Origin: Candidatus Phaeomarinobacter ectocarpi
GTDB taxonomy: Bacteria > Pseudomonadota > Alphaproteobacteria > CGMCC-115125
Direction of reading: 5' to 3'
Assembly: GCF_000689395.1 (NCBI RefSeq)
Contig: NZ_HG966617.1
Location: 1-64,000 of the forward strand
Length of the DNA stretch: 64,000 bases
Position numbers and translations under genes: made by a program. Positions 1-47,683 of this stretch are shown piece by piece. The notes beneath the pieces were generated by a model. The model was not told the DNA's origin. It saw only the letters and a list, made by a program, of their open reading frames with translations, and did no database searches. Each line of letters opens with the position of its first letter. Position 1 is the first letter of the stretch.

Positions 1-1578
1 ATGATAAATAGCAAACCCGGTTCCCAGACCGAACAAGACCCGGCTCTAGAAGAGGCGACCCAGCCATCATTCAATGGCCTCGATGCTGGCGCGGGCCAGA
101 CAGGTGTTGCAGAGCAATGGGCAAGCGTGCAGCAGAAGCTGCGCGCAGGCCTTGGCGAAGCGCGCTTCAAGAGCTGGTTTGGCCAGGTGGCCCTGATCGG
201 TGTCGGTGATGGCGCAGTGAGCTACTCGGTGCCCACGTCTTTTGCCCGTGACTACATCCAGCGTGAGTTTGGCGATCAGCTCCTGGGCCTGTGGCGTGCA
301 GAAGATTCAACCGTTCGCAAAGTGACGCTAATCGCGGAAGGGTCCGCGACAGCTGCAGAAGCCGCGCGCGCAATTGCTGCCGACAGCATGGCATCACGCG
401 CACCAGCCGCAGCTCCGGCACCGTCCAAACCTGCACCTGCTGCAGCCCCACCGCGCGCAGCGACCAGCAATCCGTTTCAGACAAACGCAGCCGCAGGTGC
501 GTCCGGCCCCGCAAGTGCGTCTGGTGAAGACGCGCCTCTTGGCGCACCGCTTCTGCCGCATCTCACCTTCGACAATTTCATTGTCGGCAAATCGAACCAG
601 CTGGCCTATGCGGCCGCGCGCCGGGTTGCAGAAGCGGAAGGCACAGTGCCTTTCAATCCGCTTTACCTGTATGGCCCTGTTGGCCTTGGCAAGACCCATC
701 TGATGCACGCCATCGGAACGGAAATCCGCCGCCGCGACCCAAGCAAGCGCGTTGTCTATCTGTCTGCCGAGCGCTTCATGTATCACTTCGTCAATGCGCT
801 TCGGCACAAGGACACCGTCGCGTTCAAGCACGCCTATCGCTCCGTCGATGTGCTGATGGTTGACGACGTGCAGTTCATCGGTGGCAAGGATTCAACGCAG
901 GAAGAGTTCTTCCATACGTTCAATGCACTGGTGGACCACAACCGCCAGATCATCATCTCTGCAGACCGCTCACCGTCTGATCTTGAAGGGATCGAGGAAC
1001 GTATCCGTTCACGCCTGGGCCACGGTCTTGCCTGCGATATTCTGCCGACTGACTATGAGCTGCGCCTCGGCATCTTGCAGGCAAAGGCTGAAGCCATGCT
1101 GCCCAACCATCCTGGCGTTCAGCTCAGTGATGACGTCATCGACTTCCTTGCAAGCTCCATCTCATCGTCCATTCGCGAGCTTGAAGGCGCCCTGACCACA
1201 CTCATTGCGCATGCGGAATTGATTGGTCGCACCCTCACGATTGAGCACGCTCAGGACATTCTGCGGCATCTGGTGCGCGCTAACGAAAAGCGCATCACCA
1301 TCGACGACATCCAGCGCAAGGTGGCAGACCATTACAATCTGCGTCTGGTTGATATGTCGTCGCCGCGCCGGTCCCGTTCCGTCGCGCGCCCACGTCAGGT
1401 GGCCATGTATTTGTGCAAGCACTTGACAACGCGCTCGCTGCCGGAGATCGGCCGCAAGTTCGGCGGCCGCGATCACACCACGGTTCTGCACGGCGTCAAC
1501 AAGATCGAGCAGCTGCGCGCCGAGGACAAAACGCTGGACGAGGACATCAACCTCATCCGCCGGAAAATTGAAGAGTAA
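1..1578 (+). CDS. dnaA: Chromosomal replication initiator protein DnaA
   Basis: Binds DnaA boxes at oriC, melts the origin and helps load the replicative helicase. The 525-residue product has the four expected domains: an N-terminal interaction domain (about 37-110), a long Ala/Pro-rich linker (about 113-180), an AAA+ core with Walker A GPVGLGKT at 225-232 and Walker B VLMVDDVQF near 284-292, and a C-terminal DNA-binding domain carrying the signature GGRDHTTVLHG near residue 488. It is longer than the E. coli protein (467 aa) mainly because of the linker. The ATG is base 1 of the window, so the upstream promoter and any adjoining origin lie outside. A strong hairpin terminator follows directly. 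Confidence 0.98.
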   Translation: MINSKPGSQTEQDPALEEATQPSFNGLDAGAGQTGVAEQWASVQQKLRAGLGEARFKSWFGQVALIGVGDGAVSYSVPTSFARDYIQREFGDQLLGLWRAEDSTVRKVTLIAEGSATAAEAARAIAADSMASRAPAAAPAPSKPAPAAAPPRAATSNPFQTNAAAGASGPASASGEDAPLGAPLLPHLTFDNFIVGKSNQLAYAAARRVAEAEGTVPFNPLYLYGPVGLGKTHLMHAIGTEIRRRDPSKRVVYLSAERFMYHFVNALRHKDTVAFKHAYRSVDVLMVDDVQFIGGKDSTQEEFFHTFNALVDHNRQIIISADRSPSDLEGIEERIRSRLGHGLACDILPTDYELRLGILQAKAEAMLPNHPGVQLSDDVIDFLASSISSSIRELEGALTTLIAHAELIGRTLTIEHAQDILRHLVRANEKRITIDDIQRKVADHYNLRLVDMSSPRRSRSVARPRQVAMYLCKHLTTRSLPEIGRKFGGRDHTTVLHGVNKIEQLRAEDKTLDEDINLIRRKIEE

Positions 1579-1607
1579 GATCTGGCCGTACGGGATGTGC
1601 TCAGACG

Positions 1608-1646
1608 AAAAAGGCCGGGATGACAATCATCATCCCGGCCTTTTTG
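1608..1646. terminator. Bidirectional intrinsic terminator after dnaA
   Basis: An 11-bp perfect stem (GGCCGGGATGA at 1613-1623 pairing with 1630-1640) with a 6-nt loop is followed by TTTTTGTT on the + strand and preceded by AAAAA, so it also carries a T-run on the - strand. It can stop dnaA and the convergent gene ending at 1664. Confidence 0.9.
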
Positions 1647-1663
1647 TTGTCTGGCTTCAAGTC

Positions 1664-2128
1664 CTAAAGCCGATGTTCAATCCGCATATGCGGTGTCCCG
1701 TCTGACAACTTGGTTGGTGCCACCAGATCCTCATCCAGTGTGCACGACACCCGCTGACGGAAGGACGAGAAGCTGTCGAACGTCACAACGTCCACCGGCT
1801 CGTCGAAATGCAGCGTCAGGCGTGTGTGCCCGGCCCCCATGGAGCGGATGCCAACGACCTGGCCAACAAACTTGTTGCCAAGATAGGTGCCGGCAACCTC
1901 GTCGCCGACCTGCAGGGGCCGCTGGGACAAGCTGCGCGCCCGTTCCTGCTCACACCGTTTGGAGACCGCACACAGCGTGTTCCAGTCGGCATATCCATAT
2001 TGGCGCGCCATAAGCTCCAGCGCGCGGGCATGGGTGATCGGGGTCTGGGGTGTATCCAGCTGAATGCGCAGGCGTTTTGCCTGGGCCTTCAGGTCTTCAA
2101 TGGTTGGTACGTCTGTTTTCGTGACCAT
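1664..2128 (-). CDS. Glyoxalase-superfamily (Glyoxalase_8-type) small protein
   Basis: Protein of about 154 residues whose N-terminal third contains the pattern LKAQAKRLRIQL ... THARALELMARQYGYADWNTL, which I recognise as the short domain annotated 'glyoxalase superfamily protein' in Proteobacteria. The remainder (a stretch beginning LQVGDEVAGTYLGNKFVGQVVGI) looks like a small beta-barrel. The enzymatic role is unknown; the family name does not prove glyoxalase activity. I chose the ATG at 2128 because GAGG lies about 7 nt upstream; an in-frame ATG at 2140 and a longer open frame to 2221 have no good ribosome site. It converges on dnaA across a shared terminator. Confidence 0.7.
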   Translation of the reverse strand: MVTKTDVPTIEDLKAQAKRLRIQLDTPQTPITHARALELMARQYGYADWNTLCAVSKRCEQERARSLSQRPLQVGDEVAGTYLGNKFVGQVVGIRSMGAGHTRLTLHFDEPVDVVTFDSFSSFRQRVSCTLDEDLVAPTKLSDGTPHMRIEHRL

Positions 2129-2641
2129 TTTGAGCCTCATATCAGGTGAAATGCTGCTGTTGGTCTGATGGAGCCCGCATTGCCACCAGGCAGCAAATGC
2201 TGACATGGCTGGCGTCGCCATTTCTGGCGGGTCGGCACAGTTTCAGGGCTTCACCGGGGCAAAAAGCCAGCGGGCGGCGGGGGCCTGAACCCCTTGGTCG
2301 TGTGAGGCTGATAGGTAGGCGTCCGCGCGGAGAATGTCAAAACCCCAAACTCACATGGCTGGTGTGTGGAATTGCAGGAAATCTGATTATGAATCCCAGT
2401 CCCACAAGCCGGATTTTGTACATCTGCACCCTGAAACTGCTATAAGTTTAGGGCTGATTCTGGCCCCTTAGGCGAGGGGTTGATTGGGGAGTCAAGCGGG
2501 CTTTGCAGACCAAAGCCAAAATGCCGCCCCAGCGTGAAATCAGCCAGCCTCAGATCACCGTGACATGGTTCAGGTGCATGGGGGCTGTGACCCCGCCAGA
2601 CCTGCCGTTCCCGGCCCGCAAATACGGAAAAACCCAGTCCC
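2129..2641. other. Intergenic region upstream of dnaN
   Basis: This 513-bp gap between a leftward small gene and dnaN contains a likely dnaN promoter (2416-2446) and three GANTC sites (2391, 2456, 2489). I looked for DnaA boxes (TTATCCACA-like) and found none beyond a partial TGTGGAATT, so it does not look like the origin. Short open frames here have no ribosome site or recognisable product. Confidence 0.6.
2416..2446 (+). promoter_or_regulatory. Putative sigma70-type promoter for dnaN
   Basis: TTGTAC at 2416-2421 and TATAAG at 2441-2446 are separated by 19 bp (18 bp if the -10 is read as CTATAA). It lies about 195 bp before the dnaN ATG, with GATTC and GAGTC sites just downstream. No other pair in the gap is as close to consensus. 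Assignment is by eye only. Confidence 0.4.
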
Positions 2642-3748
2642 ATGAAGATCACGATTGAACGCGGCGCTCTCCTTAAGGCCCTCAATCACGTGCAAAGCGT
2701 GGTGGAACGGCGCAATACGATCCCCATTCTGGCCAATGTGCTGCTGTCTGCAGATGACGGGCAGCTAAGCCTCACAGCCACCGATCTGGATATTGAGATC
2801 GTTGAAGGCGTGTCGGCTGATGTGGCGTCCGGCGGCGGCACCACGGCCCCCGCCCACACCATGTACGACATCGTGCGCAAGCTGCCTGACGGGGCACAGG
2901 TCGAGGTCAATCATGATGCGGAAACAGGCAAGGTGACGGTCGTTGCCGGTCGCTCCCGCTTCGCCCTGCAGAGCCTGCCGCGCGAGGACTTCCCCGCCGC
3001 TGCCGCAGGCGACATGCCCTACAGCTTTGAGATTTCCACCAAGGATCTGTTCCGCCTGATTGAAAAAACCCGGTTCGCCATCTCAACGGAAGAAACCCGG
3101 TATTACCTGAACGGCATCTACCTCCACACTGTTGAGGGCAAGCTGCGCGCTGTCGCCACCGATGGCCACCGTCTGGCGCGCGTCGACATGCCCATGCCCA
3201 GCGGTGCCGACGGCATGCCGGGCATCATTGTGCCGCGCAAGACAGTCACCGAACTGCTCAAGCTCCTTGAGACTGGCGACGACACGGTGAAAATCGCGGT
3301 CTCGGAAACCAAGATCCGCTTTGACCTTGGCGGTGTAACGCTGACCTCCAAACTCATCGACGGCACCTTCCCTGATTACGGTCGGGTGATCCCGTCTGAA
3401 AATGACAAGTCCATGGAAGTGGACGGCAAGCTCTTCGCGTCTGCCGTGGATCGCGTGTCCACCATCTCAACCGAGCGCAGCCGCGCCGTGAAGCTGGACC
3501 TGGACGACGGCAAAGTCACTCTCGCGGTCAACAACCCGGACTCAGGATCTGCCACTGAAGAACTTGGCGTTGACTACAAGGGTGATGCGCTGGAGATCGG
3601 CTTCAACGCCCGCTACCTGCTCGACATCACCCAGCAGCTGGATGGGCCAACGGCACATTTCGAGCTGTCTGATGCGGGCTCACCCACTGTTGTGCGCGAC
3701 ACGGATGACCCCGAGGCACTGTACGTCCTGATGCCAATGCGCGTCTGA
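2642..3748 (+). CDS. dnaN: DNA polymerase III subunit beta (sliding clamp)
   Basis: Forms the ring-shaped dimer that tethers DNA polymerase III and many repair proteins to DNA. The 368-residue length is typical for the family. The N-terminus MKITIERGALLKALNHVQSV and the C-terminal end with YVLMPMRV are characteristic, as is the central FxISTEETRYYLNGIYLH segment (about 147-161), and three repeated clamp domains of about 120 residues can be followed. The ribosome site is weak. It is followed after 31 nt by recF in the same direction, the usual dnaN-recF arrangement. Confidence 0.98.
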   Translation: MKITIERGALLKALNHVQSVVERRNTIPILANVLLSADDGQLSLTATDLDIEIVEGVSADVASGGGTTAPAHTMYDIVRKLPDGAQVEVNHDAETGKVTVVAGRSRFALQSLPREDFPAAAAGDMPYSFEISTKDLFRLIEKTRFAISTEETRYYLNGIYLHTVEGKLRAVATDGHRLARVDMPMPSGADGMPGIIVPRKTVTELLKLLETGDDTVKIAVSETKIRFDLGGVTLTSKLIDGTFPDYGRVIPSENDKSMEVDGKLFASAVDRVSTISTERSRAVKLDLDDGKVTLAVNNPDSGSATEELGVDYKGDALEIGFNARYLLDITQQLDGPTAHFELSDAGSPTVVRDTDDPEALYVLMPMRV

Positions 3749-3779
3749 CCCGGCATTCCACAATCGCGAAAGGTACTGA

Positions 3780-5018
3780 TTGACCCTTGTTGAAACCAAC
3801 CCACCCGTGACTGCGCCGACACCTGAATCTCAGGGGTCTGTCGCGTCTGCACGGCTGGCGGTGCTTCGACTGGTGGTCACAGGCTTTCGCAACCACGCCC
3901 GAACGGCGCTCGCCCTTGATGCGCGCTGTGTCGTGCTGGTGGGCGAAAACGGTGCCGGCAAGACAAACATTCTCGAAGCGGTCTCATTTCTGACGCCTGG
4001 CCGCGGCCTGCGCGGTGTGCGCCTGTCTGACGTGTCCACCCGCGACATGTCTTTGGGCGACGACGCACCCGCAGAACAGCCATGGGGCGTTGCAGCGACC
4101 ATTCTGACCCCGGAAGGCACCGTTGATCTTGGTACCGGCATTGGCCACACCAACGATGGCGACAAGCGCATCGTCAAGGTGGACGGGGCGGCAAAGCCCA
4201 GCTCCGGTATTCTTGGCCATTATGTGCGGGCCCTCTGGCTGACCCCGCATATGGACCGCCTGTTCATGGAAGGCGCCGGCGGACGCCGCCGCTTTCTTGA
4301 TCGCATGGTCCTTGGATTTGATGCGGGGCACTCTTCGCGTGTGACGTCCTATGAAAAAGCCATGCGTGAGCGCACCCGGCTCCTGGGCGAAGACAACTGG
4401 GACGCCTCGTGGCTATCGGCCCTTGAAGCTCAGATGGCGGAACACGGCATCGCAATTGCGCTCGCCCGTTCCCATATCATTGGGCAACTGGCAGCCGCCA
4501 TTGCCGAGCATGACGGCCCAAGCGACACCGCCTTTCCCAAGGCCGATGTGGCGCTGGCATCAGGCTTTGCAGATGGCGTGGACGACACCCTGAATTCAGC
4601 GCCGTCGGTTGATATAGAGGATGCGTTCGCCAAGCGGCTGGCGTCCTCGCGCGGCAGAGATGCGGCGGCGGGCCGGGCCCTTGAAGGGCCACATCGCGCA
4701 GACATGCTGGTGCGCCATGCGCCCAAAAACATGGATGCGCAGGCTTGTTCCACGGGCGAGCAAAAGGCGCTGCTGATCGGCCTCGTGCTCGCCAATGCGC
4801 GCCTGCACTGTGCAAGCTTTGGCGCGCCGCCTTTGCTGCTGCTGGACGAGGTGGCCGCCCATTTGGATGCCCGCCGTCGTGCGGCCCTGTTCGATGAGCT
4901 TGAGCGCTTGGGCGCGCAGGCGTGGATGACGGGAACAGATGCAAGCCTGTTTGAAAATCTGGGCGATCGCGCACAGCTTTTTAACGTGGCTCATGGAGAA
5001 ATCACGCCTCACACCTGA
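3780..5018 (+). CDS. recF: DNA replication/repair protein RecF
   Basis: SMC-like ATPase that helps load RecA at gaps. The 412-residue protein has Walker A GENGAGKT at 55-62 and the C-terminal LLLLDEVAAHLDARRR Walker B/D-loop near 358-373. It is longer than typical RecF (about 360-380), with roughly 25 extra N-terminal residues rich in Pro, Thr and Ser before the core begins at LAVLRLVVTGFRNH. The start is a TTG at 3780 preceded by GAAAGG at about 6 nt; no in-frame ATG or GTG fits the core better, so the TTG is likely real and may keep expression low. It follows dnaN by 31 bp. Confidence 0.95.
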   Translation: MTLVETNPPVTAPTPESQGSVASARLAVLRLVVTGFRNHARTALALDARCVVLVGENGAGKTNILEAVSFLTPGRGLRGVRLSDVSTRDMSLGDDAPAEQPWGVAATILTPEGTVDLGTGIGHTNDGDKRIVKVDGAAKPSSGILGHYVRALWLTPHMDRLFMEGAGGRRRFLDRMVLGFDAGHSSRVTSYEKAMRERTRLLGEDNWDASWLSALEAQMAEHGIAIALARSHIIGQLAAAIAEHDGPSDTAFPKADVALASGFADGVDDTLNSAPSVDIEDAFAKRLASSRGRDAAAGRALEGPHRADMLVRHAPKNMDAQACSTGEQKALLIGLVLANARLHCASFGAPPLLLLDEVAAHLDARRRAALFDELERLGAQAWMTGTDASLFENLGDRAQLFNVAHGEITPHT

Positions 5019-5066
5019 CCTCAGGTGATGCGGCTTACAGATGAAGACATTTTCGGAGACAACAAG

Positions 5067-8163
<3,097 letters not shown>

Positions 8164-8171
8164 GAGACGGC

Positions 8172-8759
8172 ATGCGTCCGCCAAGTGACTGGAACATTGA
8201 AGGTGCCGCGTCTGGTTTTGTGGCCTTCATGCGTAATTTCTCTGGCAATCGCCGCACGCGAATGGAGCGGCACATTGCATTTGCCGTTTCCGCATTCGCA
8301 CCCGCTTTAGCACTTGCAGCCGTTCTTTTTGAAGGCCGTGCTCTTGCCGCCTGGCAGATCATTGTCCTGATGGTGCTCGCCGTTGATCTGGGTGGCGGCG
8401 TATTTGTGAATGCCACCGCGGCAGCCAAGCGCTGGTATCATCGCGCTGGTGCCCGGGACTGGCATCATCTTGTTTTTGTAGTCCTGCATATTCACCCGCT
8501 GCTGATTGCCTGGGCGTTTCCTGAATCAGGATGGATGTGGGCTGCATTCCTGTACGCGGCAACGGTCGGTTCAACCATCATGGCTCTCGCCTGCCCGCTC
8601 TATCTTAGGCGTCCGGTTGCGCTCACCGCGGCGGCATTTGTTCTGGCCATTGCCCCGCTGGTGGCATCCACCCCCTTGCTCCTTGCATGGATCGCCCCGT
8701 TCTACGTGGTCAAACTTCTCGTGGCACACATAGTCCATGAGGAACCCTACGCCGCCTAA
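8172..8759 (+). CDS. Small multi-pass membrane protein of unknown function
   Basis: A 195-residue protein with four to six predicted membrane segments (about 35-54, 60-80, 99-117, 121-141, 148-166, 167-186). Histidines cluster at the cytoplasmic or membrane boundaries: His90, 99, 100, 106, 108, and His186/189 near the C-terminus. I do not recognise the family; the His pattern could bind metal or haem, but that is only a possibility. GGAG overlaps the gyrB stop codon and lies about 6 nt before the ATG at 8172, so it is probably translated from the gyrB transcript. Confidence 0.75.
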   Translation: MRPPSDWNIEGAASGFVAFMRNFSGNRRTRMERHIAFAVSAFAPALALAAVLFEGRALAAWQIIVLMVLAVDLGGGVFVNATAAAKRWYHRAGARDWHHLVFVVLHIHPLLIAWAFPESGWMWAAFLYAATVGSTIMALACPLYLRRPVALTAAAFVLAIAPLVASTPLLLAWIAPFYVVKLLVAHIVHEEPYAA

Positions 8760-8831
8760 AAACGGTCACAGGACGGCCAAACCCACGCCTTCACCTCCCG
8801 TTAAGAGTTGGGATCAGACAATAACGTCTGG

Positions 8832-8839
8832 TTAACCAT
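8832..8839 (+). promoter_or_regulatory. CtrA-like half-site upstream of the class A PBP gene
   Basis: TTAACCAT at 8832-8839, within GGTTAACCATT, matches the half-site recognised by the alphaproteobacterial cell-cycle regulator CtrA. It lies 31 bp before the preferred ATG at 8871. Its position upstream of a cell-wall gene is plausible, but a single 8-mer can occur by chance. Confidence 0.3.
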
Positions 8840-8870
8840 TTTTGGCGCGGACGGCTGGTTCGCAGGGCGT

Positions 8871-11405
8871 ATGACAGCGCGAAAAACCGCAGGAAACTGG
8901 CGTTCTCGAGACGATGGGGACAGTCAAGACGAGAGCATGCCCGAGGAGGGCGTGATCCCGTCCGCGCGTCTTGCACGCGTCCTGTCGGATCGTCCCAAAG
9001 CACAGCGCACGCCGTCAGCTTCTCCACGCGAGATGCTTGCGCGGGTAGAACAGCAGCGGCGCGTTGCGGAACGCGAGCTGGAACCCCCTTCTATTCCCGC
9101 GCCATCGCAAAAACCCGGCCCAAGAATTATCCGTCCCCGGAGCAATGAAGCGTATGAAGCCGGTGAGGCCCAGGCCAATCTGGAGCCGTCACCACGCCCC
9201 CGTCAAAAACCAAAATCCGGCGCGCGCCCGCAGTCACGCAAACCCAAACGTGCAAACAAGCAGGCACCGACACACCGGTCTGCCCGCAGTAAGATGGCTG
9301 GTGGTGGACGCGGCGGTGGCAATGGCCGTGGCGGTTCTGGGGGTGGTTCTGGAGGCGGCTCCGGCGGCGGGTTTAGCGGCTGGTTCGCAGCCATGGGCCA
9401 AAAAGTATCTGCGCGGCGTCTTGGGTACTGGGCTGCGGTCACTTGCCTGTGGCTAGGCGTCGGTGTTGTCGGCCTTGCGTTCAGCTGGGCCATGGAACTT
9501 CCCGAAACACAGGACCTTGCCGTCCCAAGTCGGGCCCCGACCGTTACCATTCTGGCCAATGATGGCTCTGTTCTGGCGCGCCGCGGCTCCGGATTTGCCG
9601 GTGCGATCAACGTTCCCGATCTTCCTCCTCACGTGGCCCACGCCTTTATCGCGATCGAAGACCGCCGCTTCTATGACCATGCGGGCATAGATCCCGTTGG
9701 CATCGCCCGCGCCATGGTGGAGAATTTCAAGGCCATGAGCGTGGTGCAGGGTGGCTCGACCATCACCCAGCAGCTGGCAAAAAACCTGTTTCTCAAGCCC
9801 GACCGCACGCTCAAACGCAAGGTGCAGGAGACCATGCTCGCCATGTGGCTGGAGAGCGAATACTCCAAGGACGAGTTGCTGACGCTTTACCTCAATCGCG
9901 TCTATTTCGGTGCCGGGGCCTATGGGCTTGAGGCGGCGTCCCAACGCTTTTTCGACAAGCCATCCACACAGCTCACCGTGCCTGAAGCCGCCATGCTGGC
10001 CGGGCTGGTGAAAGCGCCGTCGCGTCTTGCTCCCACCAACAACCCCGAAGGCGCGCAGGCCCGCGCCAACATCGTGATCGACGCCATGCGCCGTTATGGC
10101 TATCTGACGGATCCCGACGCCGACACAGCATCTGCCTTCCCCGCTGAACTGGCCCAGCGCGCAACCACCGAAACCGGGTACGCAGTCGACTGGATAGAAG
10201 AACAGCTGGCTGATTTTGTCGGCCGCACGGAACGCGACATTACAGTCGAAACAACAATTGACCCGGACCTTCAGGTGGCAGCTGTTGGCGCCATCAAGAG
10301 TGGCCTGGCATTGGTGGGAGAAGCCGCCAATGTCAGCCAGGGTGCCCTCGTCGCCATGTCGCCAAACGGCGCTGTGCGTGCGTTGGTCGGTGGTCGCGAC
10401 TACCGCAAGAGTCAGTTCAACCGCGCAACGACGGCCAAGCGTCAGCCGGGCTCTGCCTTCAAGACGTTTGTCTATCTGACAGCGCTTGAACGCGGCATGA
10501 CGCCCGTGACGATCCGCCGTGATGCGCCTATCCGCGTGGCCAACTACACCCCCTCCAATTTTTCGGACAAGTATGAAGGCGACGTCACCCTCATGCGGGC
10601 TCTCTCCAAGAGCATCAATACCGTCGCCGTGCGCCTGACCCATGAAGCCGGACCGGGCACTGTCGCCCGCACCGCGCGGCGCATGGGCATCACATCAGAC
10701 CTTCGGGCAGACCTGTCGCTGGCGCTGGGGTCATCAGAGGTGACGCTTGCAGAACTCACCGGCGCCTACGCGCCCCTTGCCAATGGCGGGCAGGGCGTCT
10801 TCACCCACATCATCAACCGCGTCACCATGGTCAATGAAGAAGGCCAGACTGACGTGCTGTTTGAACGTACCGGCGATGGCCCGGGCCGCGTCGTTGCGCG
10901 CGCAAATGTGGCGCGCATGAACGCCATGCTGGGCGAAACCATTGCCACCGGCACCGGCCGCCGGGCGCAGATTGGCCGTCCCGCCGCGGGCAAGACCGGC
11001 ACCAGTCAGGACAATCGCGACGCCTGGTTCATTGGCTACACCGCGGATATCGTTGCCGGTGTCTGGGTTGGCAATGATGATGGGGCATCCATGGTAAAGG
11101 TCACCGGCGGCAAGCTGCCGACGCAGATCTGGGCCAACTTCATGACCGCAGCCCACACCGGCAAGCCCATTCGCAACCTGCCCGGCAACTGGCAGCCGCC
11201 GGTCACCATTGCCGCTGTGCCCGCGGAACCTGAATATGATCGTACCGCACCTGCCTATGATCCGCGTTTTGGCCCGCCCGGCTATACGCCGGAAGGATAT
11301 CAGCGCCGCACGCCACGTGACCCGGACGCAGGCTTCTTCGCGCGTCTCTTTGGGGGTGGCGACGACGAGTACGATGACGGCAGCAACCGCGGCTGGGCGG
11401 ACTAG
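8871..11405 (+). CDS. mrcA: Class A penicillin-binding protein 1A (bifunctional glycosyltransferase/transpeptidase)
   Basis: Polymerises and cross-links peptidoglycan at the inner membrane. The 844-residue product has a cytoplasmic, basic and Pro-rich N-terminus, a Gly/Ser-rich run (about 143-168), one membrane anchor (about 184-206), a GT51 domain with the catalytic-Glu motif IEDRRFYDHAG near 262 and GGSTITQQLAKNLFL near 295, then a transpeptidase domain with SAFK (Ser528), SKSIN and KTGTS (about 707). I chose ATG 8871 over the TTG at 8808; neither has a strong ribosome site, but the candidate CtrA site at 8832 fits the shorter form. It converges with the next gene, leaving only 3 nt between stops. 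Confidence 0.95.
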   Translation: MTARKTAGNWRSRDDGDSQDESMPEEGVIPSARLARVLSDRPKAQRTPSASPREMLARVEQQRRVAERELEPPSIPAPSQKPGPRIIRPRSNEAYEAGEAQANLEPSPRPRQKPKSGARPQSRKPKRANKQAPTHRSARSKMAGGGRGGGNGRGGSGGGSGGGSGGGFSGWFAAMGQKVSARRLGYWAAVTCLWLGVGVVGLAFSWAMELPETQDLAVPSRAPTVTILANDGSVLARRGSGFAGAINVPDLPPHVAHAFIAIEDRRFYDHAGIDPVGIARAMVENFKAMSVVQGGSTITQQLAKNLFLKPDRTLKRKVQETMLAMWLESEYSKDELLTLYLNRVYFGAGAYGLEAASQRFFDKPSTQLTVPEAAMLAGLVKAPSRLAPTNNPEGAQARANIVIDAMRRYGYLTDPDADTASAFPAELAQRATTETGYAVDWIEEQLADFVGRTERDITVETTIDPDLQVAAVGAIKSGLALVGEAANVSQGALVAMSPNGAVRALVGGRDYRKSQFNRATTAKRQPGSAFKTFVYLTALERGMTPVTIRRDAPIRVANYTPSNFSDKYEGDVTLMRALSKSINTVAVRLTHEAGPGTVARTARRMGITSDLRADLSLALGSSEVTLAELTGAYAPLANGGQGVFTHIINRVTMVNEEGQTDVLFERTGDGPGRVVARANVARMNAMLGETIATGTGRRAQIGRPAAGKTGTSQDNRDAWFIGYTADIVAGVWVGNDDGASMVKVTGGKLPTQIWANFMTAAHTGKPIRNLPGNWQPPVTIAAVPAEPEYDRTAPAYDPRFGPPGYTPEGYQRRTPRDPDAGFFARLFGGGDDEYDDGSNRGWAD

Positions 11406-11408
11406 AGA

Positions 11409-12392
<984 letters not shown>

Positions 12393-39084: not shown

Positions 39085-39726
39085 ATGATTGAGTGCATGA
39101 CATTTTCGACTGCAAACGAGTTTGGGGACGCTCTGGTGGACTATCACCGCATGCGCTACCGGCTGTTCATAGAACGTGAAGGCTGGGACATTCCTCATTT
39201 CGACAATCTTGAATATGACCAGTTTGACACCCCAGCGACCGTCTATCTGATCAAGCGGAGACCTAAGACCGGCGAAGTGATGGGCGGCATGCGCCTTATT
39301 CCCACCACCCAGCCTTATCTGGCGGAGCATGTCTGGCCGAACATCATCCAGACCCGCCCGATCCCCAAAGACCCGAAAGTCTGGGAAGGCACGCGGATGA
39401 GTGCGGACCCGGAACTGTCCGTGGAAGAGCGGCGTCAGACCCTTGCCGAATTGGGCATCGGTTTTGTGGAGTTCCTGCTGAGCGTTGGGGCAGATCGCGT
39501 TATCTTCGAAATGCCACCAAAGCTGCTGGAGTTCCAGTCACGTGAAAATCCGGAGTTTGTCGAGAAACTGGGTGAGCCAATCACGCTGGACGACGGCACG
39601 CTGCTCGTGGGTGGCTGGGTGCATCTGAGCGAAACAACCCTGGCAGCCTATCGGGCAGGAGCTGGTGTCACTGAAGATATTGTCACCTATCCAAAGGCCA
39701 GCATCCCATACCGCAAAGCGGCCTGA
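39085..39726 (+). CDS. luxI: Acyl-homoserine-lactone synthase (LuxI family)
   Basis: Makes an N-acyl-homoserine lactone signal from S-adenosylmethionine and an acyl carrier. The 213-residue protein has the invariant LuxI residues at almost canonical numbering: Arg24, Phe28, Trp34, Asp45, Asp48, Arg70, Glu101 and Arg104 (segments RYRLFIEREGW, YDQFD, GGMRLIPT and WEGTRM). AGGAGG precedes the ATG by about 5 nt, one of the best ribosome sites in the window. There is no LuxR gene in the window. The acyl chain cannot be predicted from sequence. Confidence 0.95.
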   Translation: MIECMTFSTANEFGDALVDYHRMRYRLFIEREGWDIPHFDNLEYDQFDTPATVYLIKRRPKTGEVMGGMRLIPTTQPYLAEHVWPNIIQTRPIPKDPKVWEGTRMSADPELSVEERRQTLAELGIGFVEFLLSVGADRVIFEMPPKLLEFQSRENPEFVEKLGEPITLDDGTLLVGGWVHLSETTLAAYRAGAGVTEDIVTYPKASIPYRKAA

Positions 39727-41858: not shown

Positions 41859-44102
41859 CTAGCCGGCTGCGTCAAGCTGGCCCGTCCCTAGTCTTCGGCT
41901 GACCGGGAATATGAGGCGGACGGTTGTTCCAACGCCAACGGAACTGTCTATTTCGATTGTCCCGCCATGCTGTTTCATGAAGGCCGAAACAATAGTCAGG
42001 CCAAGGCCGATGCCGTCTGAAGACCGGTGCGCGGACGCCCTGACCTGTTGGAACGGCATGAGAATGGAGGAGAGCATCTCCGCGGGGATGCCTTCGCCAT
42101 GATCTTCAACCTCGATGGTGGGATGGCCCTGATCATCTATGAGCGTGCGAACGACAATTTGTTCGTCGGGAGGCGAGTAGCAGGCTGCGTTGCTGATAAG
42201 ATTGCTGACGGCCCGCTGAATGCGCGACGCATCGGCTAGGACATCTCCAACAGTGAAATCAAACTCGGTCTTGATGGTGTGCGCACATGCATTTGCATCG
42301 CCCCGCGCGGAGTGGATGGCGCTCTCGGCGATTTCAGCAAGGCAAATGGCTTCATCCGCGAGCTCAATGCTACCCATTTCCGCCCGCGAAATTTCCATTA
42401 TATCGTTGACGATGTTCAGCAGATGACGCCCGCTGCCGCTGATGTGGGCGGCATATTCCAGATAGTCCGGCGAGCCGAGAGGGCCCATCGCTTGCTGTTC
42501 CATCAACTCGGCAAACCCGATCACAGCGTTGAGCGGGGTGCGCAGCTCATGACCCATATTGGCAAGAAAATCCGTCTTGGCCCGGTTTGCCCGTTCAGCC
42601 TGTTCGCGGGCCTCGCGCTGCGCGGTTACCGCAAGCACACTGTCTGTTACGTCCCGAATCGTGAGGCCGAGCACGTGTCTGTATGTCGTCCCATTCGGTG
42701 TCGGCACATCAATTGGAACGTCACTGCGGTTTAGCCTCATTTCCAGATGGTGTTCTTTACCATCCTTAAAGACGCTGGCCATTATGGGCTCACCCGGCGG
42801 CGCTGTGTGCCAGCCCGCCGAAGGTCTGTCGCGATCAGGCGACAGGTTTTCAAGCAGGTCGTCGATGGTGGCACCGCTTGCGGCTTGCGGAACATTACAC
42901 AGGTCAAACGTCTGCGTATTTGCCTGCTCGATGCGCCCCTGCGCATCAAGGATGGCGATGCCGTCGAAGCTGTCGGAGACAACCCGGTCCAGGAGGATCC
43001 GTTGGTGTGCGGCGATCCGCTTCTGGCGGGCCGCATTTCGCCTTTGTATGTCTGACATAAGAACAAGCTGAAGGCCAAAGACCAGCATCAAGGCAAAGAG
43101 GGCTGGCAATACATCAAGACTGATGGCCACAAAATGCTGAAGGAGCCCAGAGACCGCGAGCAGGCCAAAAACGGCAACAGCCACGATGGCTGCATATCCA
43201 AACCAGCCCCGCTGTTGCGGCATGCACAGGGCACCTGCCAGCACCAGGATAACCAGCAGAACAACACCAATGGGTCCGGTGCGGTGTATTTCTCGGTCCT
43301 GATGGAGCGTCTCGAACCCCATGGCCTGGACCATTGGCCCTGACATGACGCCATAGCGTGGCACAGCAAAGTGGTCACCCAGTTCAACAGCTGTACCGCC
43401 AATGATGACGCGCTTGCCATTCACTACATTGACGTCGAACCGCCCCTCCATCACATCAACAAATGAGATGCGGGGAATTGTGCGTACATCTATGCCGTAG
43501 TCGACATAGAAAGGTTCCGGCTGTGGTTTGGCCTTGCCTGCAAGCAGGGCAAACATGGAGTACCTGAATTCGCCATCGGCATTCCACATGCCGTGCATGA
43601 GCTGACGCAGACGGCCGTCTTTATCCGGAATGACATTAACGCTTCCAAGCCAGGCATGGGGTGTGAGGGCCGGTGTCGGTTCGGCATCAATGAGGTTCCC
43701 GTCATACACACCTGGTTCGGCCAGTTGCGTGAAGGCGGGGAGGATGACGTGACCACCAGCATCTTCAAGGGCGCGCGCGAGCGCCGCCGTCTCGTTCTCA
43801 TTGGTCCGGGCGCTCATGTCCACATCAATGGCAATTTCATTCGCACCGGCAGCAACCAATGATCGGACTGCATAGGCGTAAGTGTTGCGAGGCAACGGCC
43901 ATTGGCCGAGTTCCTGGATCGACCGGGCATCGATCTGAACAGCAACCACCTCACCGGATGCGGGCCGATCAAGGAGATCAAAGCGGGATTCGAGCAAGGC
44001 AAGTTCAAGGGTTTCCAGCGCGCCGAACGCATAGGCGCTCATGGCGATGAAAAATACAGCACATCCTTGAATAAGCCGCTGCATGTCCCGCGGCACCCCC
44101 AC
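41859..44102 (-). CDS. CHASE2-domain hybrid sensor histidine kinase
   Basis: Membrane sensor kinase of 747 residues. Residues about 10-28 form an N-terminal anchor; an extracytoplasmic CHASE2 domain follows (about 30-270, with VAVQIDARSIQELGQWPLPRNTYA and EIAIDVDMS); three membrane segments lie at about 280-355; a PAS domain covers about 375-500; the kinase core has the H-box GHELRTPLNAVIG (His518), NLISNAACYS (N box), VEDHGEGIP and DGIGLGLTIV. No response regulator is adjacent. The FecR-domain gene lies immediately upstream in the same direction (76 bp), and CHASE2 kinases commonly travel with FecR proteins, so they are probably one transcript and pathway. Confidence 0.93.
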   Translation of the reverse strand: MGVPRDMQRLIQGCAVFFIAMSAYAFGALETLELALLESRFDLLDRPASGEVVAVQIDARSIQELGQWPLPRNTYAYAVRSLVAAGANEIAIDVDMSARTNENETAALARALEDAGGHVILPAFTQLAEPGVYDGNLIDAEPTPALTPHAWLGSVNVIPDKDGRLRQLMHGMWNADGEFRYSMFALLAGKAKPQPEPFYVDYGIDVRTIPRISFVDVMEGRFDVNVVNGKRVIIGGTAVELGDHFAVPRYGVMSGPMVQAMGFETLHQDREIHRTGPIGVVLLVILVLAGALCMPQQRGWFGYAAIVAVAVFGLLAVSGLLQHFVAISLDVLPALFALMLVFGLQLVLMSDIQRRNAARQKRIAAHQRILLDRVVSDSFDGIAILDAQGRIEQANTQTFDLCNVPQAASGATIDDLLENLSPDRDRPSAGWHTAPPGEPIMASVFKDGKEHHLEMRLNRSDVPIDVPTPNGTTYRHVLGLTIRDVTDSVLAVTAQREAREQAERANRAKTDFLANMGHELRTPLNAVIGFAELMEQQAMGPLGSPDYLEYAAHISGSGRHLLNIVNDIMEISRAEMGSIELADEAICLAEIAESAIHSARGDANACAHTIKTEFDFTVGDVLADASRIQRAVSNLISNAACYSPPDEQIVVRTLIDDQGHPTIEVEDHGEGIPAEMLSSILMPFQQVRASAHRSSDGIGLGLTIVSAFMKQHGGTIEIDSSVGVGTTVRLIFPVSRRLGTGQLDAAG

Positions 44103-44175: not shown

Positions 44176-45573
44176 TCACTTTTTGTTTTTCCCGTTCCCA
44201 CCAGCATTGCCATTCCCAAGACCAAGTGCGAGGCCGCCGCCGTTTCCGCCCGAATTGCCGCCCGAATTGCCAATCGAGGCGCCAAGGGCCAGACCACCGC
44301 CATTGCCTCCTGAGTTGCCACCCGAATTGCCAACTGAGGCGCCCAGAGCCAGACCGCCGCCATTGCCGCCCGCGTTGCCGTTTGAGGCCCCAAGGGCGAG
44401 GCCGCCGCCATTACCGCCGGAATTGCCAATCGAGGCACCCAGGGCCAGACCGCCGCCGTTACCACCCGCGTTGCCATTTGAGGCCCCAAGCGCGAGGCCG
44501 CCGCCGTTACCGCCCGAATTGCCGGTTGAGGCGCCCAGGGCCAGACCGCCGCCGTTACCACCCGCGTTGCCGTTTGAAGCCCCAAGTGCGAGGCCGCCGC
44601 CATTGCCGCCCGAATTACCGGAGGCTCCGACAGAAAGCCCATTGCCAAGACCGAGGCCTTTCCCGCTGCTGGGCGCGGAAGAAGACAAGGCAGCGCTGTT
44701 GACCAGGCCAGTTGCGTTGCCACTTGCCTTGGAGCTTGCTTTGGCGCCGGCGCTGACCGCAGCACCGACATTGCTCTTTGCAGCCGCAGCTGTTGTACCG
44801 GGTACGCTCTGGCGGACAAGACCACCAGTTGCTGCGGGGACATCAAGGGTCTGGACGCCCATTGTCGCCTTGATACGCACAGGTGCCTGAGGGTTGGGCG
44901 CCCCGACAGCTGGTGTGGGACTGCCCGGAGAGGCCGCGCGTGATGCGGGTGCAACCGTTCGCGGCGTACGACCAGTCCGAAGGGCCTTGGCCGGGCTTGC
45001 TGCTCCTGGTCCGGATACAGACAGGCCAACACCTGACCCGGCTGATACATCAGCCGTCTGGCCGGGGCGCACCATGCCCACGTCACCAGACTCAAAATCC
45101 ATGACTTCCACGGCACCCTGCACAACGTGCACGGAGGATTTTCCATCTGCAACGGTGACGGCAAACTTGGTGCCCTTCACGACAGCAGCCAGATAAGGGG
45201 TTTCCACCTCAAAATGCTGGTGATCCTTCTTGTCGACCGACAGAAGAATGGTACCAATTGACTGAATAATGGTTGTCGCCAAGCCCTGCTTGCTTTGGGG
45301 CGCCAACTGGATGCTTGTATTTGGCGCGACGACAATAGCCTCTTCGCCACGGCGTATGATCACACGTCCTGTGGCGCCGGTTGTAAGCATTGTGCCGGAC
45401 GCAAGCATCTGCTTGCTGCCGAGCGCCACGGGCGTCACGCCTTCGTGCGCGATCCACACGTCACCGCTGCGGGACTCTACCTGCCAGGCAGACTCAGCGT
45501 AGCCAGTATTTGAAAATACAACCATCGCGAGTGCGATAGCTGCGTATGCCAGTCCATTCTGGATGCGGCGCAT
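44176..45573 (-). CDS. Secreted FecR-domain protein with Gly/Asn-rich 16-residue repeats
   Basis: A 465-residue protein: signal peptide (1 to about 26, GYA before ESA), a FecR domain (about 30-175, with GRVIIRRGEEAIVVAPNTSIQL and VETPYLAAVVKGTKFAVTV), an Ala/Ser/Pro linker (about 176-318) and eight tandem copies of GN(S/A)GGNGGGLALGAS-x (319-454), ending GNGKNKK. I chose ATG 45573 because GGAG lies 9 nt upstream; in-frame ATGs at 45588 and 45609 are earlier. FecR domains act in signal transfer or as secreted envelope proteins. The neighbours are a CHASE2 kinase downstream and a divergent TpsB transporter, making it a candidate exported ligand or cargo. Confidence 0.88.
   Translation of the reverse strand: MRRIQNGLAYAAIALAMVVFSNTGYAESAWQVESRSGDVWIAHEGVTPVALGSKQMLASGTMLTTGATGRVIIRRGEEAIVVAPNTSIQLAPQSKQGLATTIIQSIGTILLSVDKKDHQHFEVETPYLAAVVKGTKFAVTVADGKSSVHVVQGAVEVMDFESGDVGMVRPGQTADVSAGSGVGLSVSGPGAASPAKALRTGRTPRTVAPASRAASPGSPTPAVGAPNPQAPVRIKATMGVQTLDVPAATGGLVRQSVPGTTAAAAKSNVGAAVSAGAKASSKASGNATGLVNSAALSSSAPSSGKGLGLGNGLSVGASGNSGGNGGGLALGASNGNAGGNGGGLALGASTGNSGGNGGGLALGASNGNAGGNGGGLALGASIGNSGGNGGGLALGASNGNAGGNGGGLALGASVGNSGGNSGGNGGGLALGASIGNSGGNSGGNGGGLALGLGNGNAGGNGKNKK
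44179..44619 (-). repeat. 48-bp tandem repeat array within the FecR gene
   Basis: Six 48-bp units followed by two 60-bp units (each with an added NSGG codon block) and a partial copy. Units alternate between GNSGG and GNAGG types, so the higher-order period is 96 bp. High identity at the DNA level makes length changes by slippage or recombination likely. Confidence 0.9.
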
Positions 45574-45713
45574 AATTGATATCTCCATGCCGGGCTTATC
45601 CGACCCCAACCGAAGTCTGGCATATGTCTAAAATTTTGAAACAAGGCATTGGAAATAAAGGAAAGAATCACTTAACCCGAAAGGGTGTATTTGAGTGAGT
45701 AGGTATTTCTTAA

Positions 45714-45763
45714 GCTTCAGGATGGCGGCACCCATTGGTTGCAGCCATCGATTGTCCTGAAGC
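45714..45763. repeat. Long inverted repeat in the FecR/TpsB divergent region
   Basis: GCTTCAGGA at 45714-45722 pairs with TCCTGAAGC at 45755-45763; TGGC and GCCA inside extend the stem with a small asymmetric bulge. It lies 50 bp before the TpsB ATG, so it may be an operator or a 5' leader hairpin. Confidence 0.6.
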
Positions 45764-45812
45764 GGGACTGCTAAAAAGTTTGTCGGCAACCGGGACTCAA
45801 TGCTCAACGAAA

Positions 45813-47531
45813 ATGGCTCTTCTGCATTTCCATATCCCGGACAGCATTCCGCGCGTTGTGATGCTCGCGGTGACCATGCCTGCCCTGTGCGCAACGATGT
45901 GGATACAGGACGCACACTCTCAGGCCTCGCAGGAAGCCGACCCCAGCCGCATTGAAGACCAGCTCATTGAGCGTGAAGTGCCGTCGCGCAAGCCAACAGC
46001 CGATGACCTCAGCCTTGGTATAGCTGGTGCGGGTACCGACGATATCAACGTTCCACCTTTCATTCTAAGCGGTGTGACTGTCGAAGGGGCTACGGCCTTT
46101 TCTGGCGAAGAAATAGCCGCGACATATGCGTCGCTCCTCGCAACCCAAATTGGGTCAACCGAACTTGAATCTATTGCCGGTCGCATCACAGCGCTCTATC
46201 GCGACGCCGGCTATGTGCTGTCACGCGCCATACTTCCGCCGCAGGACGTCACAACCGGTATCATCCGTATTCAGATTATCGAAGGGTATGTGAGCCATGT
46301 GACGACCGATGGCACCGTACCTGAGTACGCCATCAAGGGGTACGCGTCGCGCATCACCGCTGAGCGCCCACTTACACTTACAACCCTTGAGCGGAACATG
46401 CTGCTGATCAACGACATGCCCGGTGTCTCGCTCAAAGACGCTGTTCTGTCAGAGGACGAGGCGGTGCAGGGTGCGCATACACTGGCACTTGAGATTGGCC
46501 TTGATCGTATCGGCGGTTCCTTCTTTGTAGACAATCGCGGCTCAGCAGAAGTCGGTCCGGTGCAGGCCGGCACCAGCGTTGAACTTCGCAACACAATCGG
46601 TTTTGGGGATGCTGTCTCGGTCGCAGGGTTCACCGTGCCAAGCGAGCCGCGCGAGCTGAAGCTTATCCGCATCGGGTACACGACACCCATTGGCTCCAGT
46701 GGTTTGCAGATGAGCGTGTCAGGAACAGCAAGCTGGATTGATGCCGGTGGAACCCTCGATGCTGTGGGCGATGAGAGCAATCTCAAGGCAGTGTCCGCAA
46801 GTCTGGCCTACCCGATTGTCCGCGCACGGGAGTCAAACCTGTGGCTCAACACCAGCCTTGATGTCAGAAGCGCAGAAGAGCGTACGGACTTTGGCACTGT
46901 GTTTGACGAGGATCTGGTGGTGCTGCGTGGGAGTATTTCCGGCATGGTTGCGGATGATTGGGGCGGGCGCAGCTATGTCACGTTCCGGGCGTCCAAAGGT
47001 ATTCGCCTGATGAACGCGGCCAAGCGAGGCGATCTATTGCTGTCGCGTGTTGACGCTGATCCTCAGGCGGCCACCCTGACCGTAGATGTGTCGCGGTATC
47101 AGCAGCTTGTTGATGATCTGCTTTCCGTGACGCTGGCAGGCAGAGCACAAAGGGCGACGGATGCACTCGTCTCCTCGGAGGAGTTCAGTCTTGGAGGGGC
47201 CCGGTTCGGGCGAGGCTTTGAGTATGGTGAGCTGACCGGTGATGACGGGATTGCGGGCTCAATCGAGTTCACGATCGCACCTGATATCGAACTGGCCTGG
47301 GTCTCTAGCCCGCAGATTTATGCGTTCTACGACACGGGCGCTGTATGGAACAGAAATGTGGTCTTTGGTGACGCACGGCAGTCATTGTCGTCGGCCGGGG
47401 CGGGCATCCGACTGACCTTTGCGGACGACTTCAACGCCGGTTTCGAATTGGCAAAGCCGTTGGACCGTGATTCAAGCCGCACCAACACAGACGAATGGCA
47501 GGCGCTGTTCTTCCTGTCCGGGCAGCTTTAA
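45813..47531 (+). CDS. ShlB/FhaC-family (TpsB) outer-membrane transporter
   Basis: Outer-membrane beta-barrel of the two-partner secretion system, about 572 residues. It has a signal-like N-terminus (to about residue 38), a POTRA region (about 80-157: ILSGVTVEGATAFSGEEI ... IRIQIIEGYV), then a barrel domain from about 230 with the FhaC-type motif LGGARFGRGFEYG and a terminal strand ending in Leu. The start is ATG 45813, since upstream residues from a GTG at 45735 precede the signal peptide. No classic TpsA exoprotein (haemagglutinin-type N-terminus) is nearby; the only exported neighbour is the divergent FecR-repeat protein, 240 bp away start to start. Confidence 0.92.
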   Translation: MALLHFHIPDSIPRVVMLAVTMPALCATMWIQDAHSQASQEADPSRIEDQLIEREVPSRKPTADDLSLGIAGAGTDDINVPPFILSGVTVEGATAFSGEEIAATYASLLATQIGSTELESIAGRITALYRDAGYVLSRAILPPQDVTTGIIRIQIIEGYVSHVTTDGTVPEYAIKGYASRITAERPLTLTTLERNMLLINDMPGVSLKDAVLSEDEAVQGAHTLALEIGLDRIGGSFFVDNRGSAEVGPVQAGTSVELRNTIGFGDAVSVAGFTVPSEPRELKLIRIGYTTPIGSSGLQMSVSGTASWIDAGGTLDAVGDESNLKAVSASLAYPIVRARESNLWLNTSLDVRSAEERTDFGTVFDEDLVVLRGSISGMVADDWGGRSYVTFRASKGIRLMNAAKRGDLLLSRVDADPQAATLTVDVSRYQQLVDDLLSVTLAGRAQRATDALVSSEEFSLGGARFGRGFEYGELTGDDGIAGSIEFTIAPDIELAWVSSPQIYAFYDTGAVWNRNVVFGDARQSLSSAGAGIRLTFADDFNAGFELAKPLDRDSSRTNTDEWQALFFLSGQL

Positions 47532-47606: not shown

Positions 47607-47683
47607 TGGCGCGCCGGGGAAGATTCGAACTCCCGACCCCCAGATTCGTAGTCTGGTGCTCTATCCAGCTGAGCTACCGGCGC
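47607..47683 (-). tRNA. tRNA-Arg (anticodon ACG)
   Basis: A full cloverleaf reads from 47683 down: acceptor GCGCCGG pairing with CCGGCGC, D-arm GCTC..GAGC, anticodon stem CCAGA/TCTGG with loop CTACGAA (anticodon ACG), T-arm with GTTCGAATC, discriminator G and an encoded CCA. A34 is normally deaminated to inosine to read CGU, CGC and CGA. Confidence 0.97.

Follow-up and report, generated by a model that had tools for sequence, protein, structure and literature searches.

In a window of 64,000 nucleotides on contig NZ_HG966617.1 of Candidatus Phaeomarinobacter ectocarpi (all coordinates refer to this window unless stated otherwise), a secreted FecR-domain protein and a CHASE2 histidine kinase are encoded beside a transporter of the two-partner secretion (TPS) type, TpsB. 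We consider it rather probable that the three proteins act as one trans-envelope signalling unit, with the TpsB as its outer-membrane part. The trio recurs across Alphaproteobacteria, including many bacteria of soil and water, the TpsB is intact and has no TpsA partner, and a linker motif of the FecR protein is associated with the presence of the TpsB; these points were observed, whereas which proteins touch, what they signal and in which direction are inferred.

Conservation of the trio and a FecR motif associated with TpsB

Scanning of the collected loci, most of them with local models instead of Pfam, revealed TpsB, FecR and CHASE2 together in 91 alphaproteobacterial loci (L070 and L147 are apparently one and the same place), 69 of which stem from a Bradyrhizobium-dominated set, this genus being over-represented in the collection. 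The FecR subfamily profile matched in 29 of 387 alphaproteobacterial genomes, and the scan of named genomes contributed 80 further loci, mostly of Bradyrhizobium. A phylum sample yielded additional trios within Alphaproteobacteria, and the trio was absent from the four non-alphaproteobacterial loci read in it; here and below, negative statements are bounded by the completeness of the draft genomes. A sequence-only reading of the window had proposed a search for co-occurrence of the three families and had named its absence from relatives as the outcome that would speak against a common function. Recurrence in 91 loci indicates that the arrangement is not due to chance and supports the three families as a conserved unit across Alphaproteobacteria. 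The gene order, with TpsB divergent from FecR-CHASE2, is almost universal; L158 is a genuine exception, and the flag on L157 merely reflects overlapping open frames. The CHASE2 domain is constant, while the output domain alternates between EAL (72 of the 91 loci) and kinase (18). FecR and CHASE2 without TpsB were found in 18 loci, besides a few incomplete loci, several of them at contig ends. No account of a TpsB with FecR and CHASE2 was found in the part of the literature covered by our search.

Side-by-side comparison of the linkers unveiled a conserved segment in the TpsB-linked FecR proteins, roughly [VL]RIxxxLGxxxLN[VF]xxxTxGLA[RH], which sits between the FecR domain and the tail and is predicted to be disordered (predicted local distance difference test score, pLDDT, ~45). 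Since a strict regular expression missed most divergent unseen members, a position matrix was used instead, for which the Bradyrhizobium set and loci closely related to the window served as training data and the other loci as test data, scores above the 99% shuffle threshold being counted as positive. The motif was detected in 16 of 23 loci with TpsB versus 2 of 23 loci without it (Fisher 2e-5), the positive L160 being barely over the threshold with a doubtful segment. Both TpsB-less exceptions are paralogues in TpsB-positive genomes: L078 is the second FecR in a TpsB-FecR-FecR-CHASE2 cluster, and L082 is a Bradyrhizobium paralogue whose genome also contains the trio L083. Locus L076, truncated by the contig end at the expected TpsB site, carries the motif as well. 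The motif had already been noticed in some of the test loci when the matrix was built, so that only L184-L193 are fully unseen; among their TpsB-positive members the motif is clear in L186, L187, L190 and L193, weak in L184, recognisable by eye in L188 and lacking in L189, and the matrix found none in the TpsB-less L185, L191 and L192.

In the FecR tree the TpsB label requires at least five changes, and L117, L185 and the Rhizobium/L191-192 group, which lack both TpsB and motif, are nested inside TpsB-positive lineages. As the motif follows TpsB even across independent losses, FecR and TpsB appear to be specifically coupled. Their co-variation suggests direct contact between the two proteins, and on this sequence pattern the motif is a candidate docking segment for TpsB.

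The TpsB and the missing TpsA

The TpsB of the window comprises a signal peptide, an N-terminal H1-type helix, POTRA1-POTRA2 and a barrel with the L6 motif FGRGF, and thus has the tandem POTRAs, barrel and conserved L6 motif of a type Vb transporter. Over most of its length it matches solved structures of CdiB (6wim, E=5e-40) and FhaC (E=2e-24), and the AlphaFold model (pLDDT 82, predicted template modelling score 0.77) reproduces the helix at residues 45-55, the two POTRAs and the barrel. What is lacking for a type Vb system is the cognate TpsA with an N-terminal TPS domain (PF05860). The sequence-only reading had seen no TpsA near this TpsB and had named a genuine one elsewhere that always pairs with it as an outcome that would refute its proposal. 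The host genome, one contig of 3.416 Mb, encodes one FecR protein, three CHASE2 proteins, two POTRA_2 TpsBs and a single TPS-domain protein, a frame of 2599 residues at 2.90 Mb; since this only TpsA adjoins a TpsB of its own, the one in the window is a genuine orphan.

The same holds on a broader scale. With the TPS model no TPS-domain frame was detected at any of the 91 trio loci, and in a positive control the model matched 29 frames next to canonical TpsBs. Nine genomes (G396, G111, G209, G193, G272, G268, G098, G137 and G320) contain one POTRA_2 gene, that of the trio, and no TPS domain genome-wide. In seven others (G000, which is the host, G002, G012, G142, G355, G015 and G144) a second TpsB is present, and their single TPS-domain protein is encoded close to this non-trio TpsB. 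A distant TpsA as partner was therefore ruled out by the genome-wide TPS/POTRA_2 scans in the host and in the nine genomes. The TpsB tree placed 32 of 34 trio rows in one clade (support 94/98), the trio TpsBs of G015 and G144 forming a second one (100/100); two rows inside the trio clade that carried the label 'other' are duplicates of trio genes (L013 = L043, L023 = L054). TpsA-linked TpsBs, including the host's own, fall outside these FecR-linked clades.

The canonical TpsB-TpsA pair of the host (G000:C1, ~2.889-2.904 Mb of the genome; L008 7318-12781 and L009 1-8201) precedes a gene for a CHAT-TPR protein. At a distance of about 11 kb from the TPS domain, a further protein showed a CHASE2 domain and no output or other domain, so that this genome has a second place where TPS and CHASE2 come together. 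G012 likewise has a TpsB-TpsA-CHAT arrangement (L059).

FecR protein, kinase and locus

The FecR protein consists of a signal peptide (...SNTGYA/ESAW), one FecR domain (PF04773), a linker and a Gly/Asn-rich tail of 147 residues; as it contains no Cys, it is no lipoprotein. The AlphaFold model of the FecR domain (residues 30-195, pLDDT mostly >90) retrieved periplasmic domains of sigma regulators in Foldseek (4m0n, 4m0h and PupR 6ovk, E 6e-7 to 3e-5). A disguised TPS domain was consequently rejected, the fold being of the sigma-regulator CJM type. The anti-sigma domain, transmembrane helix and STN subdomain of such regulators are missing, and signal peptide, FecR domain, disordered motif and tail are present instead. 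The GGGLALG units of the tail are spaced by 16 or 20 residues, and structure prediction gave short strands with a 16-residue period (pLDDT 60-70), too weak to be used. A different form occurs in Rhodoplanes (L117 7908-8912), where the FecR protein lacks the motif, the Gly/Asn tail and an adjacent TpsB, terminates in a hydrophobic segment with a basic end and is encoded beside a CHASE2-EAL gene; it is possibly an inner-membrane-anchored form.

The kinase is composed of a transmembrane segment, a periplasmic CHASE2 domain, further hydrophobic segments (hydrophobic stretches at residues 10-32 and 271-353), HisKA with the H-box GHELRTPLNAVIGF and HATPase_c. Its catalytic part matches the NCBIfam models PdhS and DivJ best, both under the model cut-offs. 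EAL outputs would act directly on cyclic di-GMP (c-di-GMP), and a PdhS/DivJ-like kinase perhaps via PleD/DivK-type regulators; the two outputs of the trios could then converge on c-di-GMP.

Open reading frames (ORFs) and Pfam matches confirmed the three genes named in the sequence-only reading, which had covered 44176-47531, and the position of the FecR gene directly upstream of the kinase gene; the latter falls just beyond that range (Table 1). The FecR gene likely starts, on the minus strand, with the ATG at 45573 (the mechanical ORF begins at TTG 45609) and the TpsB gene with ATG 45813 (mechanical ORF, TTG 45735). Only 73 bases separate the FecR gene from the kinase gene.

Table 1. Positions of the trio and its parts in the 64,000-nucleotide window.
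Feature	Position	Strand	Evidence
CHASE2 histidine kinase	41859..44102	-	Pfam PF05226 E=3e-33, PF00512, PF02518
Secreted FecR-domain protein, 465 residues, MRRIQNG...	44176..45573	-	Pfam PF04773 E=2e-10
Gly/Asn-rich repeat tail, 8 GGGLALG units, basic end GNGKNKK	44176..44619	-	
TpsB-associated linear motif VRIKATMGVQTLDVPAATGGLVRQSV, FecR residues 232-257	44803..44880	-	position matrix; pLDDT ~45
Divergent intergenic region separating FecR and TpsB start codons	45574..45812		sequence and ORFs
TpsB (ShlB/FhaC/CdiB type) transporter, 572 residues	45813..47531	+	POTRA_2 E=2e-20, ShlB E=1e-20

A tRNA-Arg(acg) gene (47607-47683, minus strand) lies directly past the TpsB stop codon. In the congener G001 the trio is replaced: syntenic genes are found on both flanks, just 81 C-terminal TpsB residues are left, and a similar tRNA stands beside this remnant, with ~5 kb of other genes in place of the trio. 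The tRNA-flanked site may be a hot spot of exchange. Co-loss of the three genes in G001 was discarded as functional evidence beyond a weak hint, because a single deletion suffices to explain it. At 39085-39726 (plus strand) an ORF resembles, as judged by eye, a LuxI-type acyl-homoserine-lactone synthase.

Proposed signalling unit, precedents and alternatives

In the proposed unit the TpsB would form the outer-membrane part, and the FecR protein would reside in the periplasm, docked at the TpsB through its linker motif, which probably binds a POTRA domain as an extended strand. The FecR domain would relay the state of the TpsB to the inner-membrane partner through the latter's periplasmic CHASE2 domain, and this CHASE2 protein would make the intracellular output, by the PdhS/DivJ-like kinase in the window and in most relatives by an EAL domain, a predicted c-di-GMP phosphodiesterase. 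Such a trio would most likely be a split form of the NsrA arrangement, with a remoter likeness to FecA-FecR. We tentatively suggest, at a little less than even confidence, that this TpsB lineage has abandoned TpsA secretion and become an outer-membrane receptor or gate in signalling, which recognises FecR by a short motif and not by a TPS domain.

On pSymB of S. meliloti 2011 (NC_020560.1, L179) a protein that joins a FecR domain and TPRs to a long C-terminal region is encoded directly upstream of a CHASE2 cyclase; the plasmid loci L176-L178 were considered as the NsrA locus and rejected. In S. meliloti nsrA presumably lies immediately upstream of cyaK, the pSymB record carrying no gene names. 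This presumed order, together with a size and layout compatible with an NsrA barrel at residues 600-1200 (PMC7529298), led us to identify the pair as NsrA-CyaK, an established system for signalling from the outer to the inner membrane. NsrA is needed for signal perception by CHASE2 cyclases (PMC7529298, PMC13001267), and the NsrA-CyaK/CyaD1/CyaD2 system shares with the trio an outer-membrane barrel, a FecR domain and a CHASE2 inner-membrane transducer, the pSymB genes likewise being adjacent. However, NsrA unites FecR, TPR and barrel in one protein without a POTRA/ShlB match, whereas FecR domain and TpsB barrel are encoded by separate genes in the window, and its output is a cyclase instead of a kinase or EAL domain. 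A non-alphaproteobacterial locus reminiscent of NsrA (L181, G489, 1-12133) encodes two tandem large FecR-domain proteins, with a C-terminal region resembling an outer-membrane barrel, and an adjoining CHASE2 protein.

FecR/CHASE2 neighbourhoods, whose existence the sequence-only reading had mentioned, are known from the Burkholderia BiofilmReg operon (PMC5192318) and the CHASE2-cyclase clusters of Campylobacterota (PMC9239204). These have a FecR-domain protein adjoining a CHASE2 kinase or cyclase, and the window too has a periplasmic FecR-domain protein beside a CHASE2 transducer; they differ in their LysM-FecR or other FecR proteins and in the response regulator of the Burkholderia operon, and no TpsB is described. 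Also outside Alphaproteobacteria, L183 (G415, 8770-9687) holds a short FecR protein that ends in poly-Gly; a CHASE2 kinase is encoded downstream of it, with more kinases nearby. In PupR, the FecR-type domain and an STN subdomain jointly bind the outer-membrane transducer PupB at its periplasmic domain (PMC7186176). FecA-FecR/PupB-PupR resemble the trio in the FecR-domain fold and the outer-to-inner-membrane logic, but the trio has no anti-sigma domain, STN subdomain or TonB transducer, and it has a soluble FecR protein, with CHASE2 as presumed receiver. FhaC/FhaB and CdiB/CdiA, finally, share the TpsB with H1 helix, two POTRAs, barrel and L6 loop, CdiB being the closest solved structure, whereas a TPS-domain substrate is missing from the trio locus.

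Several observations weigh against the signalling unit. FecR-CHASE2 pairs exist without TpsB, which is hence not essential to the pair; the divergent TpsB-positive members L152, L153, L157, L158, L160 and L189 score low or doubtfully for the motif; the ORFs read around the trio included no recognisable response regulator gene next to the window kinase; and the TpsB may still export something, because all its translocation features are retained. If this were a non-canonical form of two-partner secretion, the TpsB would have the FecR protein or its tail as substrate, with the motif serving as address label in place of a TPS domain; the tail would be threaded to the surface and CHASE2 would sense the FecR protein left behind in the periplasm. 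Besides the complete TpsB, the disorder of the motif is in line with this, resembling that of POTRA ligands (POTRA2 of FhaC binds extended amphipathic TpsA segments; PMC5422565), as is the joint lack of TpsB, motif and tail in L117. Positions distinguishing the trio-clade TpsBs are about two-fold enriched in POTRA2 (12/40, p=0.009), which is weak evidence because Bradyrhizobium dominates this clade. However, Gly/Asn tails occur in 20 of 23 TpsB-less FecR proteins versus 49 of 95 TpsB-linked ones, and eight genomes without any POTRA_2 gene carry subfamily FecR proteins, most of them with Gly/Asn tails of equal or stronger character; some TpsB-linked tails are quite unlike, being Pro-Glu or Asp-rich. 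The tail was therefore rejected as a general mark of TpsB cargo. Together with a FecR domain that is a folded periplasmic signalling module and no TPS domain, this renders export of the FecR protein rather unlikely in our judgement, although it is the chief rival of the signalling unit. The sequence-only reading had the repeat protein exported by, or reporting through, the TpsB: the coupling of the two is supported, the tail as a mark of cargo is not, and "reports through" fits the precedents better, export of the tail being the less likely option.

Alternatively, the TpsB might export another protein without TPS domain that is encoded elsewhere, with FecR-CHASE2 regulating or monitoring this export. 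The nine genomes devoid of TPS-domain substrates agree with such a role, and in Pseudomonas PUMA3 a TPS system is connected with a regulator of FecR type (PMC2729926), but no additional conserved gene was noticed next to the trio and the co-variation of motif and TpsB suggests direct contact, and we regard this explanation as improbable. Lower still we rank a mere divergent neighbour, kept beside a working FecR-CHASE2 pair by a shared promoter or chance linkage: TpsB-less pairs are common here and known elsewhere (PMC5192318, PMC9239204), but the linkage is conserved over many families and the motif occurs essentially only where TpsB is present, which makes this very improbable. Overall, the data support FecR-TpsB coupling.

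TpsB proteins are viewed as dedicated exporters of one large TpsA, and a widespread TpsA-less lineage linked with a sensor pair would add signalling to the roles of the Omp85/TpsB superfamily. To our knowledge, the ligands of CHASE2 domains are mostly unknown; the proposed unit, if correct, would hint that FecR proteins, as reporters from the outer membrane, are what they sense. NsrA-CHASE2 signalling controls plant infection in a related rhizobium and the trio is common in Bradyrhizobium, so that its role could be tested in culturable, genetically tractable strains.

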